A DNA stretch of 44,923 nucleotides from Deltaproteobacteria bacterium (lineage in GTDB: Bacteria; Desulfobacterota; Desulfobaccia; Desulfobaccales; 0-14-0-80-60-11): positions 1 to 44,923 of the forward strand of contig JACQYN010000087.1 in the NCBI GenBank assembly GCA_016208235.1, written 5' to 3'. The notes beneath the pieces were generated by a model. The model made no database searches, was not told where the DNA came from, and saw only the letters and a program-made list of their open reading frames with translations. A program made the translations under genes and the position numbers. Positions 1,788 to 30,415 of this stretch are shown in pieces (positions within the stretch are counted from its first letter, which is position 1; every line of letters starts with the position of its first letter).

Positions 1788-3428
1788 TCAGTCTGGGGCC
1801 TGGCGTCTCTCATAGATCAGAATGGAAAACGGTGACTCAGGTTTTCCGGTCCCTGCCTCGCCCCCCCAAAAATACCGGGTTTCCCGGGCCGAGACGATGT
1901 CCACCCTACCCACCAGGTGGTAATATTTCTGGGAATAATCCTGAAACCAGTTCAAAATGAGCGTCTTGGAATCAGGTTGAATTAACCAGGAATAAATAAT
2001 GCCAATAAAGATTAGAAACTTGGGAGAGGCTCGCTCTATTTCGGCAATCATTTCTTTCTGCATGGAGAGACTGTAATCATGGTTCCCCGTCAGCTCATAA
2101 GTGTAAATATACCCGGTGGCAGATTTCCTCTGAGCATAGAAAAATATTTGCGGCTCTGATCCCAACACCGCAATTTTATCCCCGGCTCCGGTTCGGGACG
2201 TCAGGAATTCGGCAATTTTAAGGGATTCGAGGAAGGGATTCGGACCGTAGATAGTCTTGACCAGAGTCTCAGGTTTTTCAGAGAGGAAATAATCTCTATG
2301 GGCATTTACTCCCAGGACTATTCCGAAAAATAAACCTAGCAGAGGAAGAGATATTATTATTCTATAAGAACATTTTTGAGATATATAATATTGTAGCGAG
2401 TCAATGAACACTCCAATCAGTATGGCGCCGGCCGGAAACAATAATATAAAATAATGGCTACGAAAATAAAAACCGGCGCATACGGAAAGAAAAGATAACA
2501 TACTGAACGATAAGACGATCCATCTTATGCCTCTAAGTCGTTTGTCTATAATTAAAATCAGAAAACCAAATGCCATCATTATCCATAATAGGGCGAAGCT
2601 GTTAATAACCTCTATCAAGCTCTGGTTAAATTCTTCCATTCCCCTGGATAGAGGAACCGCGCCGGCATACGCCGCGCTATATTTAAAGGTCCAGAACCAA
2701 AACTTATCAAAAGTCCCGCTAATTAAGGCAATCGCCACCACCAACAATAGAGGCATTATGGCGCCTGCGCCGAAAATCAAAAGGCGCCCGACGATTGCCT
2801 TTATTCTTGCGGGCTGAGAGACCAGACCCGCGTGCAGTATTAAATAACCTCCGAACAACACAAAAAAAATGCCCTGTTGTTTCATGAGAATCGCCAGGCC
2901 GAATAAGAAACCGCTTACCCAATAGAGGGCCAACCTCCCGTTTTCCAGGCCAAATAGGAGTATCCAGGTCCCGGCCAGAGTAGCCAAGACAATAAAATGG
3001 CTGGCGTGCGCGGCAAATCCCAATACCGTGGGACCAACGGAGAGGAAGGCATAACTCAAAGCCGCGATTATCGCGGCCCGGGGGTTCCATAATTTCTTGG
3101 TAATCAGAAATAATAAGGTGATGGAGAGACAATTAACGATAAGCAGACCCAAATGAATGCCTTTAATGGTCTGGCCCAAAAAAAGCATTATCAGAGAATA
3201 AGCAAAACAAGTCCCCGGAAGTTTCATGGTATATACTGCTTTAAAAGGCGGTACCATTTGCAGAAGCATTTGGCCGCAATAGGCAAATTCACCTTCATCC
3301 CGCTCCAACGGGATATCCAAAAGTCTGGCGCGGATGCAAACAACCAAAATAATGATAATGCCAAGGAATACCCAATAAATAATATTACCGGAACGTTCTT
3401 CACTTATCTTCGCATTATTTATAAACAT
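1788..3428 (-). CDS. Polytopic membrane protein, glycosyltransferase family 39/PMT-like
   Basis: 546 aa, many TM segments, N-terminal DEGEFAYCGQMLL (acidic DE motif after TM1 typical of GT39/ArnT-like), long hydrophobic repeats. Confidence 0.7.
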   Translation of the reverse strand: MFINNAKISEERSGNIIYWVFLGIIIILVVCIRARLLDIPLERDEGEFAYCGQMLLQMVPPFKAVYTMKLPGTCFAYSLIMLFLGQTIKGIHLGLLIVNCLSITLLFLITKKLWNPRAAIIAALSYAFLSVGPTVLGFAAHASHFIVLATLAGTWILLFGLENGRLALYWVSGFLFGLAILMKQQGIFFVLFGGYLILHAGLVSQPARIKAIVGRLLIFGAGAIMPLLLVVAIALISGTFDKFWFWTFKYSAAYAGAVPLSRGMEEFNQSLIEVINSFALLWIMMAFGFLILIIDKRLRGIRWIVLSFSMLSFLSVCAGFYFRSHYFILLFPAGAILIGVFIDSLQYYISQKCSYRIIISLPLLGLFFGIVLGVNAHRDYFLSEKPETLVKTIYGPNPFLESLKIAEFLTSRTGAGDKIAVLGSEPQIFFYAQRKSATGYIYTYELTGNHDYSLSMQKEMIAEIERASPKFLIFIGIIYSWLIQPDSKTLILNWFQDYSQKYYHLVGRVDIVSARETRYFWGGEAGTGKPESPFSILIYERRQAPD

Positions 3429-3672
3429 GATTATTTAATCTAGTTATTATTATATTATTAGCAGAATCAGAGACCTCGGCTACGGGCAATCTTATTCATA
3501 AATCTAGATGAAAATAGCATAATTACCATACCCGCCCCAATAAAATTTTTGCCTCTAATAAACTGCAGGTCAAAGGAAAATCCCTGGAGAAAGAATGTGG
3601 CTAATTCATTAATTCTGATTAAATTAGGAAAGGAGGGCTGCGGGAAAACCAAGGAGGCGGGCCGAGAAAACA

Positions 3673-9365: not shown

Positions 9366-9887
9366 GTTATTCCCTTGTCTTAAATTGGGGGGAGAAAATA
9401 TGGCGAAATGAGATCATCCTGCGGCGAACCAATGCGGCGCCGGTTGTCACCGCACTCCTCCCCCTGATTGCCGCCGAGCCGAGACTCTTGATGTTTAGGT
9501 AGCCTGCATGTATCTATCGTTTAGTTAATAATAAATTTTGTCAAGTCAAGTCAAGAGAAACGCCCCATCCCCAATTCACATGTATCTCCATGTATAAATT
9601 ATTTCGGTAAAATTGGGAAAAAGAAAAGAATTTTAGCAGAAATTTTGGCAGAAGGGAGCACTTTTTTTACAGTTCTTCCTCCAAAAATTACCGGGGCCTC
9701 TGAAAAAGAGTCGTCGGCGGAGATAGAGCCGACAGGGCGGGCTTCTATGCCCTCCTGTAGCCCCGCCCCCCACCCTCCTTTCTACCCGCATCCGGATGTC
9801 AATTCCCTCCTCCCCTATCCTTCCCGGCCATGATTCCTTCTCCGCTCAAAAATTCCGGAAAAAATGTTGAGTTCTCTAAGGAGATTT

Positions 9888-9909
9888 GCTATTTTTTTTT
9901 AAGAATAGC
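9888..9909. promoter_or_regulatory. Palindromic operator GCTATT-N10-AATAGC upstream of ModE-like gene
   Basis: Half-sites at 9888-9893 and 9904-9909; same half-sites and spacing occur at 10321-10342. Confidence 0.7.
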
Positions 9910-9912
9910 GAT

Positions 9913-10296
9913 ATGGCCATCAAGAAAAAAGATCATGGCCGGGGCACCGCCCTGGCTGCCAGCTCTCCGGCTGCCGGGGTGCAGATCAAAGGGCGCCTCT
10001 GGTTGGAAAGAGACGGGGAAACCTTCCTGAGTTGGGGGCGGGTGGTGCTCCTGGAGCGAATCCGGGAACTGGGTTCCATCGCCGCCGCGGCCCGTTCCAT
10101 GGAGATGGCTTACAGCCATGCCTGGTCCCTGGTGGCCGACATGAACCGTCTGGCCGGGGAAGACCTGGTGGCCCGGACCTTTGGGGGGAAAAACGGCGGC
10201 CGGGCCTGGCTGACCCCCGCGGGTGAGGCGGCAGTCGCCAATTTTTGGGACATGGCCGGTAAGTTCCAGGAATGGTTAACAAATCAAGAGGGTTGA
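9913..10296 (+). CDS. ModE-like winged-helix (molybdate/tungstate) transcriptional regulator, HTH domain only
   Basis: GRVVLLERIRELGSIAAAARSMEMAYSHAWSLVADMNRLAGEDLVARTFGGKNGGRAWLTPAGEAAV matches the ModE/LysR-type HTH; adjacent to tungstate transporter. Confidence 0.85.
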   Translation: MAIKKKDHGRGTALAASSPAAGVQIKGRLWLERDGETFLSWGRVVLLERIRELGSIAAAARSMEMAYSHAWSLVADMNRLAGEDLVARTFGGKNGGRAWLTPAGEAAVANFWDMAGKFQEWLTNQEG

Positions 10297-25302: not shown

Positions 25303-25392
25303 TGGGGTAGGGGGCCAGGGGTTGTGAACCCCTGGCCCCTCCCCTCAATGACAAACAAAAAGGGAGGGCCTGTGGCCCTCCCTTGATAATTT
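25303..25392. terminator. Tandem strong hairpins (AGGGGCCAGGGGTT..AACCCCTGGCCCCT; GGGAGGGCC-TGT-GGCCCTCCC)
   Basis: Stem-loops read directly; located beyond the 3' end of the mvhD-like gene (minus strand). Confidence 0.5.
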
Positions 25393-25471: not shown

Positions 25472-25936
25472 CTAAGAAGCCTCTTTCGCCTCCGGGTGTT
25501 CGGCCAGCCAGGCGGCCCGGAGTTCGTGTTTGATGGGGCTGGGGCCCAGTTTATAGGCCCGTTCGCTCATCTCCTTGGCGATGGCCGCGAATTTCGGCCC
25601 TTCCGAGGAGGAGAGGTTGAACATCTCCAGCCGCTCCGGCTCCAGGCCTATCTGGGTGAAGTCCTTTTTCAGCTTGGTCACCCGTTTCCTGGCCCGGATG
25701 TTACCCATCAGGTAGTGGCATTCGCCCTCCAGGCAGCCGGCCACGAAGACCGCGTCCGCGCCGCCTTCGAAGGCCTTGAGGAGGTGGATGATATCCACCC
25801 GGCCAGTGCAAGGCATCATGATGATCTTGATCTCCGGGGGATATTGCAGTCGCATCGAACCTGCCAGGTCCGCGGCGCTGTATGCTCAGTAGCGGCAGCA
25901 AAAGCCGATGATCTTGGGAGCAAAGGGTGTGGTCAT
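25472..25936 (-). CDS. mvhD: MvhD-like hydrogenase/heterodisulfide reductase-associated iron-sulfur protein; probable selenoprotein (UGA at 25888-25886)
   Basis: MTTPFAPKIIGFCCRYUAYSAADLAGSMRLQYPPEIKIIMMPCTGRVDIIHLLKAFEGGADAVFVAGCLEGECHYLMGNIRARKRV...; in-frame TGA in the position of a conserved Cys/Sec ligand; GGAGAGAATT before ATG. Confidence 0.88.
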
Positions 25937-25951
25937 AATTCTCTCCTTTCT

Positions 25952-28900
25952 TTAACCCGCGGCCAGAGCCGTTTCCTGGGCGATGATCTGGATATCAGTA
26001 TAGTGTTTCATGGTGATGGCTTTGGCCGGGCATTCGGAGACGCAGACGCCACAACCCTGGCACTTGGCCGGATCGATATAGGCCGCGTCGACCTGGTAGT
26101 CGATGACCGGCACGTTGAAGGGACAGGTGCGCACGCAGGTGAGGCAGACCGCGCACTTGTCGGGTTCCACCACGGCCACCACGCCGCCCACGGAGACTTT
26201 CTCCAGGGCCAGGAAGGTGGCGGCCCGGCCCGCCGCGGCCTTGGCCTGGGCGATGGACTCGTCAATGGGCTTGGGATAGTGGGTCAACCCGGCCAGGAAG
26301 ATGCCGTCCGTGGGGAAATCCACGGGCCGCAGCTTGGCGTGGGCCTCGTTGAAGAAGCCCTCGGCATTTCTGGGCAACTTGAAGAGCTCGCCCAGATCGT
26401 CGATGGGGTTGGGAAGCACCGCGCTGGCCAAGGTCAGGAGGTCCGGCTTGAGGACCACCGGCATACCCAGGATGGGGTCGGTCACCGTCACCTGGAGGCC
26501 GCCCTCTGCGGCTTTTTCCACCTTGGGCTTGCTGTTCAGGTCAAAGCGGATGAACATCACGCCCATTTCCCGGGCTTCCTTGTAGAGCAGCTCCCGTTCC
26601 CCGTAGGTGCGCAGATCCCGGTAGAGGATGAAGACGTCCAGATCCGGGTTGAGTTTTTTCATCTCAATGGCGCTTTCCACGGAGTGGGTGCAGCAGAGAC
26701 GGCTGCAATAGGGCCGCTCCGGTTCCCGGGAGCCCACGCACTGGATGAAGACCGCCTGCTTGGCCTGAGCCACCCGGGGGTCCTTCTCGGCGATGAGCTT
26801 ATCCACTTCCAGGCCGGTGAAGATATTGGGGTCCTGGCCGTAGAGGTACTCTTCCGGGGACAAGGCGTGGCCCCCGGTGGCCATGACGGTCACCCCGTGC
26901 TCCAGTTCCCGGTCGCCCTGGGGGGTGGCCACGGTGGAGCGGTAGTTGCCGACGAAGCCGGTGGTTTCCGTGACCGCGGTGTTGAACATGATTTCGATGT
27001 TGGGGTTATTCTTAACATCTTCGATCAGCTCTTCCAGGTAGCCCCGGTAGTTGTAGCCCCGGGAGCTGACCACCAGGTTCCAGGCGTTGCCCCCCAGCTT
27101 GTCGGTTTTTTCCACCAAATAGGACTTGAAGCCCATATTGGCGATGGACCGGGCGGATTCCATGCCGGCCACGCCGCCGCCGATGACCAGCGCGGCTTTG
27201 GTGACCGGGAACTCCATCTTGTGGAGGGGCTCCAGGTTGACCAGCCGGGCCACGACGCCCCGCACCAGGTCCTTGGCCTTCTCCAGGGCCTTTTCCGGCT
27301 CGTGCATGTGCACCCAGGAGTCCTGGTCCCGGATATTGGCCATCTCGAAGAGATAGGGGTTGAGGCCCACCTGGCGGATGGTCTCCATAAACATGGGCGC
27401 GTGGGTGCGGGGACTGCAGGAGGCCACCATCACCCGGTTCAGGTTTTGCTCTTCGATGGCCTTCAGGATCTTGTCCTGGGTGTCCGCGGAGCAGGTGAAC
27501 AGGTTTTCATCCACGAAGGTCACGTAGGGCAAGGTCTTGGCGTATTCCACCAGCTTGGGGATATTAATCACGCCGCCGATGTTGATGCCGCAGTTGCAGA
27601 TAAACACGCCGATGCGGGGTTCCTGGCCGCTCACGTCTTTTTCCGGGGGCAGGACCTGCACCTTCTTGTCCTTACCCCGGGCCGCAGCCAGCAGTTCCCC
27701 GGCGTCCGCGGCCGCGCCCGAGGCCTCCATAACCGATTGGGGAATGTCCTTGGGGCTCTGGAAGACGCCGCAGACATAAACCCCCGGTTTATTGGTGCTC
27801 AGGGGCGTGAAGGGGGAGGTCTCCGCAAAGCGGGTGTTCGGATTGAACTCCACCCCCAGGGTCTTGGCCAACTTCAAGGCATCCGGCGATGACTCCAGAC
27901 CCACGGAGAGGACCACCATGTTGAAGTCTTCGTTCTTCAGTTCCCCGTTTTCCGTGAGGTAGCGGATGCGCACGTCATCGGAACCGGGCACCTGGTCGAT
28001 GGTGTGGATCCGGGAGCGGAGGAAGCGGATGCCGTGCTCGTCTTCGCCCCGCCAGTAGTATTTTTCGAACTCCTTGCCGTGGGTCCGCATGTCCATGAAG
28101 AAGATGGCGGTGTCCAGGGGTTCCTTGCTGTGTTCCTTGGCGATCACCGCCTGCTTGATGGCGTACATGCAGCACACCGCGGAGCAGTAGCTGTTGTCGC
28201 AGTGATTGAGGTCCCGGGAACCCACGCATTGCAGCCAGGCGATCTTCTTGGGCTCCATGTGGTCCGAGGGCCGGATGAGGTGCCCGGCAAAGGGGCCCGA
28301 GGCCGACAGAATCCGCTCGAATTCTAGACTGGTAACCACTCCGGGGTAAGCTGCGTAATGGTAAGCCGCATACTTGGTGGGGTCATAGACCTTGAAACCC
28401 GGGGCCATGACCACCGCGCCCACGTTCAGTTCCTTCGTCAGGGGGCCCTGGTCGTGCATGACGGCCCCGGCCTGGCAGGCCACCACGCACTGCAGGCACT
28501 CGGAGCACACCCCGCAGTTGATGCAGCGGGCCGCCTCGGCCACGGCCTCTTCTTCCGTGTAGCCCAGGTTGATTTCCTTGAAGCCCTTGATCCACTCTTC
28601 CACCGGGATATGGGGCATCAGGGCCCGGTGCTTCTTTTCCGCGTCTTTCTGGATTTCACTCCAGTGGCCTTCCTCCTTGGGGATGGGCCGCAGGGGCGCT
28701 TCCCGGTCCGCTTTCAGGTCTTGGCCGTTCAGGTAACGATCTACGGAGAGGGCCGCTTCCCGGCCCGCGGCCACCGCGCCGATGGCGATCCAGGGGCCGG
28801 TGACCACGTCCCCGCCGGCAAAGACGCCTTCCCGGCTGGTGGCCAGGGTCTCAGGATCGGATTTGATGAGGCCCCGGGGAGTCAGCTCAATTTTGTCTTC

Positions 28901-30415
28901 GGGAGTGAGGAACTGCAGGTTCGCCTTCTGACCGATGGACATGATGACCACGTCCGTGTCCCGGGTAGTGGTCTGATCTTCAAAATAGGTAGGGGCAAAG
29001 CGGCCCTGCTCGTCAAAGACCCGCTCCACCGCCTTCATTTCCAGGCCGGTGACTTTGCCGCTGGCGGCGATAACCTGCTTGACGCCCCAGCGGGTGACGA
29101 TCTCCACGCCTTCGTGCTCCGCCTCTTCCACTTCCCAAGGAGACGCGGGCATCTCTTCCCGGGACTCCAGACAAACCAGGGTCACCTGGGACGCGCCTTG
29201 GCGCCGGGCGGTGCGGGCCACGTCCATGGCCACGTTGCCGCCGCCGATGACCAGGGTCCGTTTGCCTTTAACGGGGTTGGCCCCGGTGGAGGACGCGTCT
29301 TTCAGATATTCCACGCCCCAGAGCACGCCCTGGGCGTCGGCCCCGGGGATCGGCAGCCTGATGGAGTCCTGGCAGCCCACGCCCATGAAAACCGCCCGGA
29401 AACCGTCCCGGGTGAGGAGGTCGTTGATGGTGAGGCCCGGGCCGATGGGGGTCTTAAACCGGAATTCCACCCCCAGGCGCTTTAAGTAATCCACCTCTTG
29501 CTGCAGCACCTCCCGGGGCAGGCGGTATTCGGGGATGCCGTAGCGCAGCCAGCCGCCGGCTTCCGCCGCGGCCTCGAAGATCACCGCTTTATAGCCCTTC
29601 AGGGCCAGGTGATAGGCGCAGCTCAGACCCGACGGGCCGGCGCCCACAATGGCCACCGCGCCTTCCTGCTTTTCCACCTCCGGCACCGGCAGGGCGCTCC
29701 AGTCAACCTGATCCGCCACGAAGCGTTTCAGGTTGCAGATGGCGATGGGTTCCTCTATTTCCTGGCGGCGGCAGTCGCTCTCGCAAGGATGCGGGCAGAT
29801 GCGGCCGATGGTGCCGGGCAGCGGCAGCCGGTCCATGATCAGGGCCAGAGCCTCCGGGTATTTCTTGGCCTTGATCAATTGCACGTAGCCCTGGGCGCTG
29901 AGGTTGGCCGGACAGGCCCGAACGCAAGGGGCCCGGTCGTATTTCTTAATGGCAAAAGTGGCGGGAATGGCCTGGGGATAGAGGCGATAGATGGCCTGGG
30001 CTTCGTTGAGGCCGATATTGAATTCGTTGGGCACCCCCACCGGACAGGCCTCGGCGCAGGCCCCGCAGCCGGTGCACTTGGCCGGGTCGATGAAGCGGGG
30101 TTCCTGCTCCACGGTCACTTTAAAATTGCCGGGCTCGCCGGAGATGGCCGTGACCTCGGACAGGGTGCTGATCTCAATGTTCAGGTGGCGGCCGCATTCC
30201 ACCAACTTGGGAGAGATGATGCACATGGAACAGTCATTGGTGGGAAAGGTCTTGTCCAACTGGGCCATGACGCCGCCGATGGCCGACTTTTTCTCCACCA
30301 GGTGGACGTAGAAACCCGCGTTTGCCAGGTCCAGGGCGGCCTGCACCCCGGCGATGCCGGCGCCCACCACCATTACTTTACCAACCGGGTCTTTCGCCTG
30401 CGCCTTTTTGGCCAT
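25952..30415 (-). CDS. hdrA: HdrA-like FAD/4Fe-4S protein with embedded GltD/NfnB-like NAD(P)-binding module and a second HdrA domain (1487 aa)
   Basis: Three FAD motifs (GAGIAGVQAALDLANAG, GAGPSGLSCAYHLALKG, GGGVAGMESARSIANMG) plus NAD(P) motif GGGNVAMDVARTARRQG; multiple Cx2Cx2Cx3CP clusters. Confidence 0.9.
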   Translation of the reverse strand: MAKKAQAKDPVGKVMVVGAGIAGVQAALDLANAGFYVHLVEKKSAIGGVMAQLDKTFPTNDCSMCIISPKLVECGRHLNIEISTLSEVTAISGEPGNFKVTVEQEPRFIDPAKCTGCGACAEACPVGVPNEFNIGLNEAQAIYRLYPQAIPATFAIKKYDRAPCVRACPANLSAQGYVQLIKAKKYPEALALIMDRLPLPGTIGRICPHPCESDCRRQEIEEPIAICNLKRFVADQVDWSALPVPEVEKQEGAVAIVGAGPSGLSCAYHLALKGYKAVIFEAAAEAGGWLRYGIPEYRLPREVLQQEVDYLKRLGVEFRFKTPIGPGLTINDLLTRDGFRAVFMGVGCQDSIRLPIPGADAQGVLWGVEYLKDASSTGANPVKGKRTLVIGGGNVAMDVARTARRQGASQVTLVCLESREEMPASPWEVEEAEHEGVEIVTRWGVKQVIAASGKVTGLEMKAVERVFDEQGRFAPTYFEDQTTTRDTDVVIMSIGQKANLQFLTPEDKIELTPRGLIKSDPETLATSREGVFAGGDVVTGPWIAIGAVAAGREAALSVDRYLNGQDLKADREAPLRPIPKEEGHWSEIQKDAEKKHRALMPHIPVEEWIKGFKEINLGYTEEEAVAEAARCINCGVCSECLQCVVACQAGAVMHDQGPLTKELNVGAVVMAPGFKVYDPTKYAAYHYAAYPGVVTSLEFERILSASGPFAGHLIRPSDHMEPKKIAWLQCVGSRDLNHCDNSYCSAVCCMYAIKQAVIAKEHSKEPLDTAIFFMDMRTHGKEFEKYYWRGEDEHGIRFLRSRIHTIDQVPGSDDVRIRYLTENGELKNEDFNMVVLSVGLESSPDALKLAKTLGVEFNPNTRFAETSPFTPLSTNKPGVYVCGVFQSPKDIPQSVMEASGAAADAGELLAAARGKDKKVQVLPPEKDVSGQEPRIGVFICNCGINIGGVINIPKLVEYAKTLPYVTFVDENLFTCSADTQDKILKAIEEQNLNRVMVASCSPRTHAPMFMETIRQVGLNPYLFEMANIRDQDSWVHMHEPEKALEKAKDLVRGVVARLVNLEPLHKMEFPVTKAALVIGGGVAGMESARSIANMGFKSYLVEKTDKLGGNAWNLVVSSRGYNYRGYLEELIEDVKNNPNIEIMFNTAVTETTGFVGNYRSTVATPQGDRELEHGVTVMATGGHALSPEEYLYGQDPNIFTGLEVDKLIAEKDPRVAQAKQAVFIQCVGSREPERPYCSRLCCTHSVESAIEMKKLNPDLDVFILYRDLRTYGERELLYKEAREMGVMFIRFDLNSKPKVEKAAEGGLQVTVTDPILGMPVVLKPDLLTLASAVLPNPIDDLGELFKLPRNAEGFFNEAHAKLRPVDFPTDGIFLAGLTHYPKPIDESIAQAKAAAGRAATFLALEKVSVGGVVAVVEPDKCAVCLTCVRTCPFNVPVIDYQVDAAYIDPAKCQGCGVCVSECPAKAITMKHYTDIQIIAQETALAAG

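Follow-up and report, generated by a model that had tools for sequence, protein, structure and literature searches.

Proteins of the MvhD family are also known under the names FlpD, FrhD and VhuD. Selenocysteine (Sec)-containing FrhD was described for Deltaproteobacteria in 2006, with eight copies in Syntrophobacter fumaroxidans and four in Syntrophus aciditrophicus (PMC1794560). In Desulfobacterium autotrophicum HRM2, Sec-containing MvhD1, MvhD2, MvhD3 and MvhD5 are encoded beside HdrA or HdrL, the latter being the name given in this organism to the fusion of HdrA with glutamate synthase, and an mvhD gene is located after each HdrL gene (PMC2702500). For mvhD of Desulfococcus multivorans, a gene spanning two locus tags, a UGA codon and a SECIS were noted (PMC5109826). 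A [2Fe-2S] cluster is present in MvhD and ElpC; in the solved complexes, this cluster of MvhD supplies the bifurcating HdrA flavin with electrons (PMC6019823, PMC12350162).

The window analyzed here, a DNA stretch of 44,923 nucleotides from a bacterium related to sulfate reducers, contains a gene which adds to the known kind of Sec-FrhD/MvhD, published in 2006, a Sec-MvhD beside HdrL having been published in 2009. With the deltaproteobacterial Sec-FrhD/MvhD (PMC1794560) it shares the family, the use of Sec, the broad bacterial group and the pairing with an HdrA-type gene, but its partner HdrL contains Cys only, and an frhA/frhG operon was not identified beside it. In D. autotrophicum HRM2 (PMC2702500), Sec-MvhD follows either HdrL, the HdrA/GltD fusion, or HdrA, and in the window it follows HdrL; HdrL1 and HdrL3 of D. 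autotrophicum, however, are selenoproteins, while HdrL of the window is not. Archaeal VhuD (Methanococcus; 9sfi_K by sequence) has a non-standard residue at the same position of the CxxC motif as the window protein, but in VhuD both column 17 and column 68 are of this type, compared to one Sec in the window protein, and the archaeal SECIS is located in the 3'-UTR, whereas that of the window lies inside the coding region. The coordinates of the features are listed in Table 1.

Table 1. Features of the hdrL–mvhD locus in the window and related loci with UGA at column 68.
Feature	Coordinates	Strand	Description
mvhD-like gene of a predicted selenoprotein	25472..25936	minus	154 aa with U as residue 17; a single TGA within one frame
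Predicted selenocysteine codon UGA	25886..25888	minus	Codon 17, second Cys position of the MvhD CxxC motif
Ribosome-binding site AAAGGAGAG	25941..25949	minus	Upstream of the mvhD ATG; sequence read directly
Putative SECIS hairpin	25856..25872	minus	Stem 25872-25866 with 25862-25856, 7 bp; apical loop GGC 25865-25863
hdrL	25952..30415	minus	1487-aa HdrA with inserted GltD-like NAD(P)-binding domain; Cys only
Predicted intrinsic terminator after mvhD	25360..25384	minus	11-bp stem with T tail; sequence read directly
mvhD with column-68 UGA in related genomes			L118-L122, L143, L146, L149, L153, L156-L159, L161-L165; conserved hairpin ATTTCCT-GGA-AGGAAAT

Direct reading of the sequence showed that the mvhD frame starts with ATG at 25936-25934, preceded by a ribosome-binding site, ends with TAG and contains a single in-frame TGA at codon 17, just as described in the initial annotation. 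Translated through the TGA, the frame represents one complete FlpD/MvhD domain (PF02662; 160 bits against a gathering score of 22.3; profile positions 1-123 of 123), and the full-length domain is obtained only when the UGA is read through. With the VhuD model NF045873, the protein scores 155 bits, below the NCBIfam cut-off of 215. Its relatives in the PDB are 7bkb_F, 5odc_D and 9sfi_K. Under the standard code, the open reading frame comprises 127 aa, starts only from the ATG at 25855 and is devoid of the Cys-rich N-terminus; the truncation of the gene with the loss of its Cys/Sec motif had been correctly foreseen.

Homologues were collected by scanning genome contigs with back-translated search peptides, none of which overlapped the SECIS region downstream of the UGA, and therefore this region was not selected for. 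Among 80 loci from other genomes, codon 17 is TGA in 74 and Cys (TGC or TGT) in six; nothing but Sec or Cys occurs at this column among the subfamily homologues counted, in line with what had been anticipated for codon 17. Within the order, a single TGA is present in each of the 17 closest matches. The 74 external genes, the window gene and one further paralogue of its genome constitute the 76 UGA genes considered below, and all 76 retain the conserved Cys set of FlpD/MvhD, namely, C14, U17, C43, C68 and C73. According to the MvhD tree, which includes few columns and many long branches, at least two changes between Cys and UGA are forced, and 5-6 are counted in bootstrap trees; the six Cys copies may represent either losses or the ancestral state. 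In the PDB sequence 9sfi_K, an archaeal-type subunit delta, a non-standard residue X is found exactly at column 17 and a second X at column 68; these are presumably Sec, since MvhD/VhuD is listed as having two Sec (PMC13188914).

Another column-17 Sec-MvhD with an identical SECIS core is encoded in the same genome downstream of another HdrA-like gene (L012; G000:C222:3479-3880, plus strand).

The default gene call implies that the UGA is a true stop and that a 127-aa protein is translated from the internal ATG at 25855; this frame is indeed what an ORF finder gives, and AGG is present about 8 nt before the ATG. However, the AGG is a part of the 3' arm of the conserved hairpin, and the short form would lack residue 17 together with C13 and C14, both of which are kept in 76/76 UGA genes, their codons upstream of the UGA alternating synonymously between TGC and TGT, making translation from 25855 very improbable. 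The assembly is a fragmented draft in which an mvhD paralogue (L013) has a frame-shifting tandem duplication, as might be expected if the gene were a pseudogene or if TGC/TGT had been turned into TGA by faulty sequencing or assembly, but the SECIS is conserved and the TGA is shared by the great majority of the external homologues and by all of the closest order matches. Since dozens of independent genomes share this TGA, the sequencing error considered in the initial annotation is excluded, and an error or pseudogene as a whole has a negligible probability.

Sec decoding of the UGA agrees with the region located downstream of it. The hairpin GGACCU-GGC-AGGUUC proposed previously was found, with an extra closing pair, although the distance from the UGA to the loop is 20 nt and not about 21-23 nt. 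In the UGA genes, the hairpin has the form (C/G)GGACCU-GGC-AGGUUC(G/C), the loop likewise starting 20 nt after the UGA. Codons 23-26 are GAC CTG GCA GGT in 76/76 of these genes; Asp, Leu, Ala and Gly all allow synonymous codons, the flanking codons vary synonymously among the UGA genes, and 14 Cys homologues contain mixed synonymous codons at 23-26. The closing pair of the hairpin (hairpin columns 17 and 33) is C-G in 26 genes, G-C in 44 and C-C in six (n = 76); in the six C-C genes, the inner pairs are retained, with the exception of one pair in L108. The change at hairpin column 17 falls on the second position of an Ala/Gly codon and alters the amino acid, while that at hairpin column 33 falls on the third position of a Ser codon and is synonymous; because of this, the joint switch is not explained by protein constraint and points to RNA pairing. 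Overall, 98.3% of pair cells are paired in 59 distinct sequences, and the covariation score was reached by 0/500 shuffles, a figure inflated by kinship among the sequences. Nor is the hairpin a chance occurrence: across the 3.08-Mb genome, its core was found nowhere but at the two TGA-MvhD genes, and the reversed-pattern control gave 0.

The folding energy of the hairpin is -17.0 kcal/mol (z = -2.1; 7/200 shuffles as low), which is a weak signal by itself; judging from the alignment, conservation and not folding energy is the strong signal. In minimum free energy (MFE) folding of single homologues at 48 nt, several sequences adopted other structures despite the invariant hairpin sequence; since such single-sequence folding is unreliable, covariation and codon conservation were used instead. 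When the window and the UGA region were searched against Rfam, neither a match nor a fitting bacterial SECIS family was revealed, and the SECIS was therefore assessed comparatively and against the published bSECIS rules, namely, a loop of 3-9 nt, a stem of 4-16 bp, G in the first two loop positions, a spacing of 16-37 nt and MFE <= -7.5 (PMC13188914). With its loop GGC, 7 bp, 20 nt and -17.0 kcal/mol, the window hairpin lies within these limits and is, as had been suggested, compatible with a bacterial SECIS.

The components required for a bacterial selenoprotein, SelA, SelB, SelC and SelD, for which the initial annotation had proposed to look, are all encoded in the genome, SelB as a contig-cut fragment. 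The genome contains tRNA-Sec (selC, 78 bits), SelA (606 bits) and two full-length SelD genes (382 and 378 bits), one of them with a TGA, plus a third fragment. Only the C-terminal part of SelB is present, its frame being cut at the start of contig C1, and its score is below the model cut-off because of the contig end. In the order, tRNA-Sec is above the cut-off in 24/29 genomes; the search gave no match in G012, G020 and G021, order-level relatives with TGA-MvhD, probably because of draft gaps.

The selD gene with the in-frame TGA is L114 (G000:C59:22396-23310), the one without TGA is L113 (contig C5), and L115 is a contig-edge fragment; probably, Sec-type and Cys-type SelD are present in one genome. 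The SelB part (L026; G000:C1:2-1525) contains an in-frame tandem repeat, with EEICRHLSAYHKQNPLKSGLSKEEL occurring twice, which together with the duplication in L013 suggests that short duplications were introduced by the assembly or that the genome contains real tandem duplications.

Near-cognate readthrough is a general phenomenon, and the UGA could be decoded in this way as Trp or Cys with no involvement of selenium; no support for it was found here. The UGA is exchanged exclusively for Cys, the hairpin that follows it is conserved and the genome has the Sec machinery, so that suppression of this kind is highly unlikely. Selenocysteine insertion is accepted because of the UGA/Cys exchange, the conserved hairpin and the presence of tRNA-Sec, selA, selD and the contig-cut selB. 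Together with the PF02662 domain, this supports the initial proposal of a Sec-containing MvhD: the gene almost certainly encodes a genuine selenoprotein, an HdrL-partnered [2Fe-2S] subunit, with Sec placed at residue 17 via SelB and the hairpin.

The product of hdrL matches the profiles of HdrA2 (923 bits) and of the NAD(P)-binding PRK12771 (542 bits, above its cut-off). The gene ends 15 nt before mvhD, likewise precedes it at almost all of the homologous loci, and is its probable operon partner. Of the earlier assignment to a subunit of the Mvh hydrogenase/Hdr type, the MvhD family is retained, but the partner is the fused HdrA/GltD (HdrL), and an MvhA/MvhG gene was not identified beside mvhD. 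Because mvhD follows hdrL so closely and ends at a strong terminator-like hairpin, MvhD of the window, by analogy with the solved complexes, most likely passes electrons to or from the HdrL flavoprotein via a [2Fe-2S] cluster. SelB carrying Sec-tRNA(Sec) would recognize the hairpin, located 20 nt after the UGA, and selenocysteine would then be inserted at residue 17, replacing the second Cys of CxxC. There, Sec may either coordinate the [2Fe-2S] cluster or lie close to it, and the cluster would relay electrons between the HdrL flavin and a module acting as donor or acceptor, the direction of the flow being presumptive.

Among the HdrL proteins of neighbouring loci, just one candidate stop codon was found, in L105 (near 2954-3460), where it is aligned to a conserved Cys (column 65) of an HdrL-type neighbour, a candidate Sec-HdrA.

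A second putative Sec site is located at column 68. Among the MvhD copies of the window's own and related genomes (n = 50, some counted more than once), UGA is at column 68 and Cys at column 17 in 21, the reverse arrangement is present in nine, and none of the 50 has UGA at both. In the column-68 hairpin, AUUUCCU-GGA-AGGAAAU, the loop lies 23 nt downstream of the UGA; this hairpin is not kept intact in Cys homologues, and 99.1% of its cells are paired (16 distinct sequences), with modest covariation, reached by 32/500 shuffles. The apex CCU-GGN-AGG is common to the column-17 and column-68 hairpins. In the main text of the papers, no statement on a column-68 Sec site for bacteria was found, and this site may be less documented. 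Possibly, although at somewhat less than even probability, Desulfobacterota-type bacteria have two alternative MvhD Sec sites, each with its own SECIS, selenium tuning either side of the cluster in different Hdr complexes.

In the paralogue L013 (contig C99, approximately 9567-10040, minus strand), column 17 is Cys and column 68 is an in-frame UGA, with the hairpin ATTACCT-GGA-AGGTAAT 23 nt after the UGA and one compensatory change from U-A to A-U. In its 3' part, a tandem duplication of about 75 bp, originating from the assembly or real, shifts the frame.

The analysis corrects a truncated gene call; two of the conserved Cys/Sec positions lie in the N-terminal part that this call omits. The SECIS core, nearly invariant in 76 sequences, might serve to rescue the same mis-called gene in Desulfobacterota drafts. 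Columns 17 and 68 represent a clean natural variant pair for the role of the selenolate near the [2Fe-2S] cluster in Hdr-type complexes.
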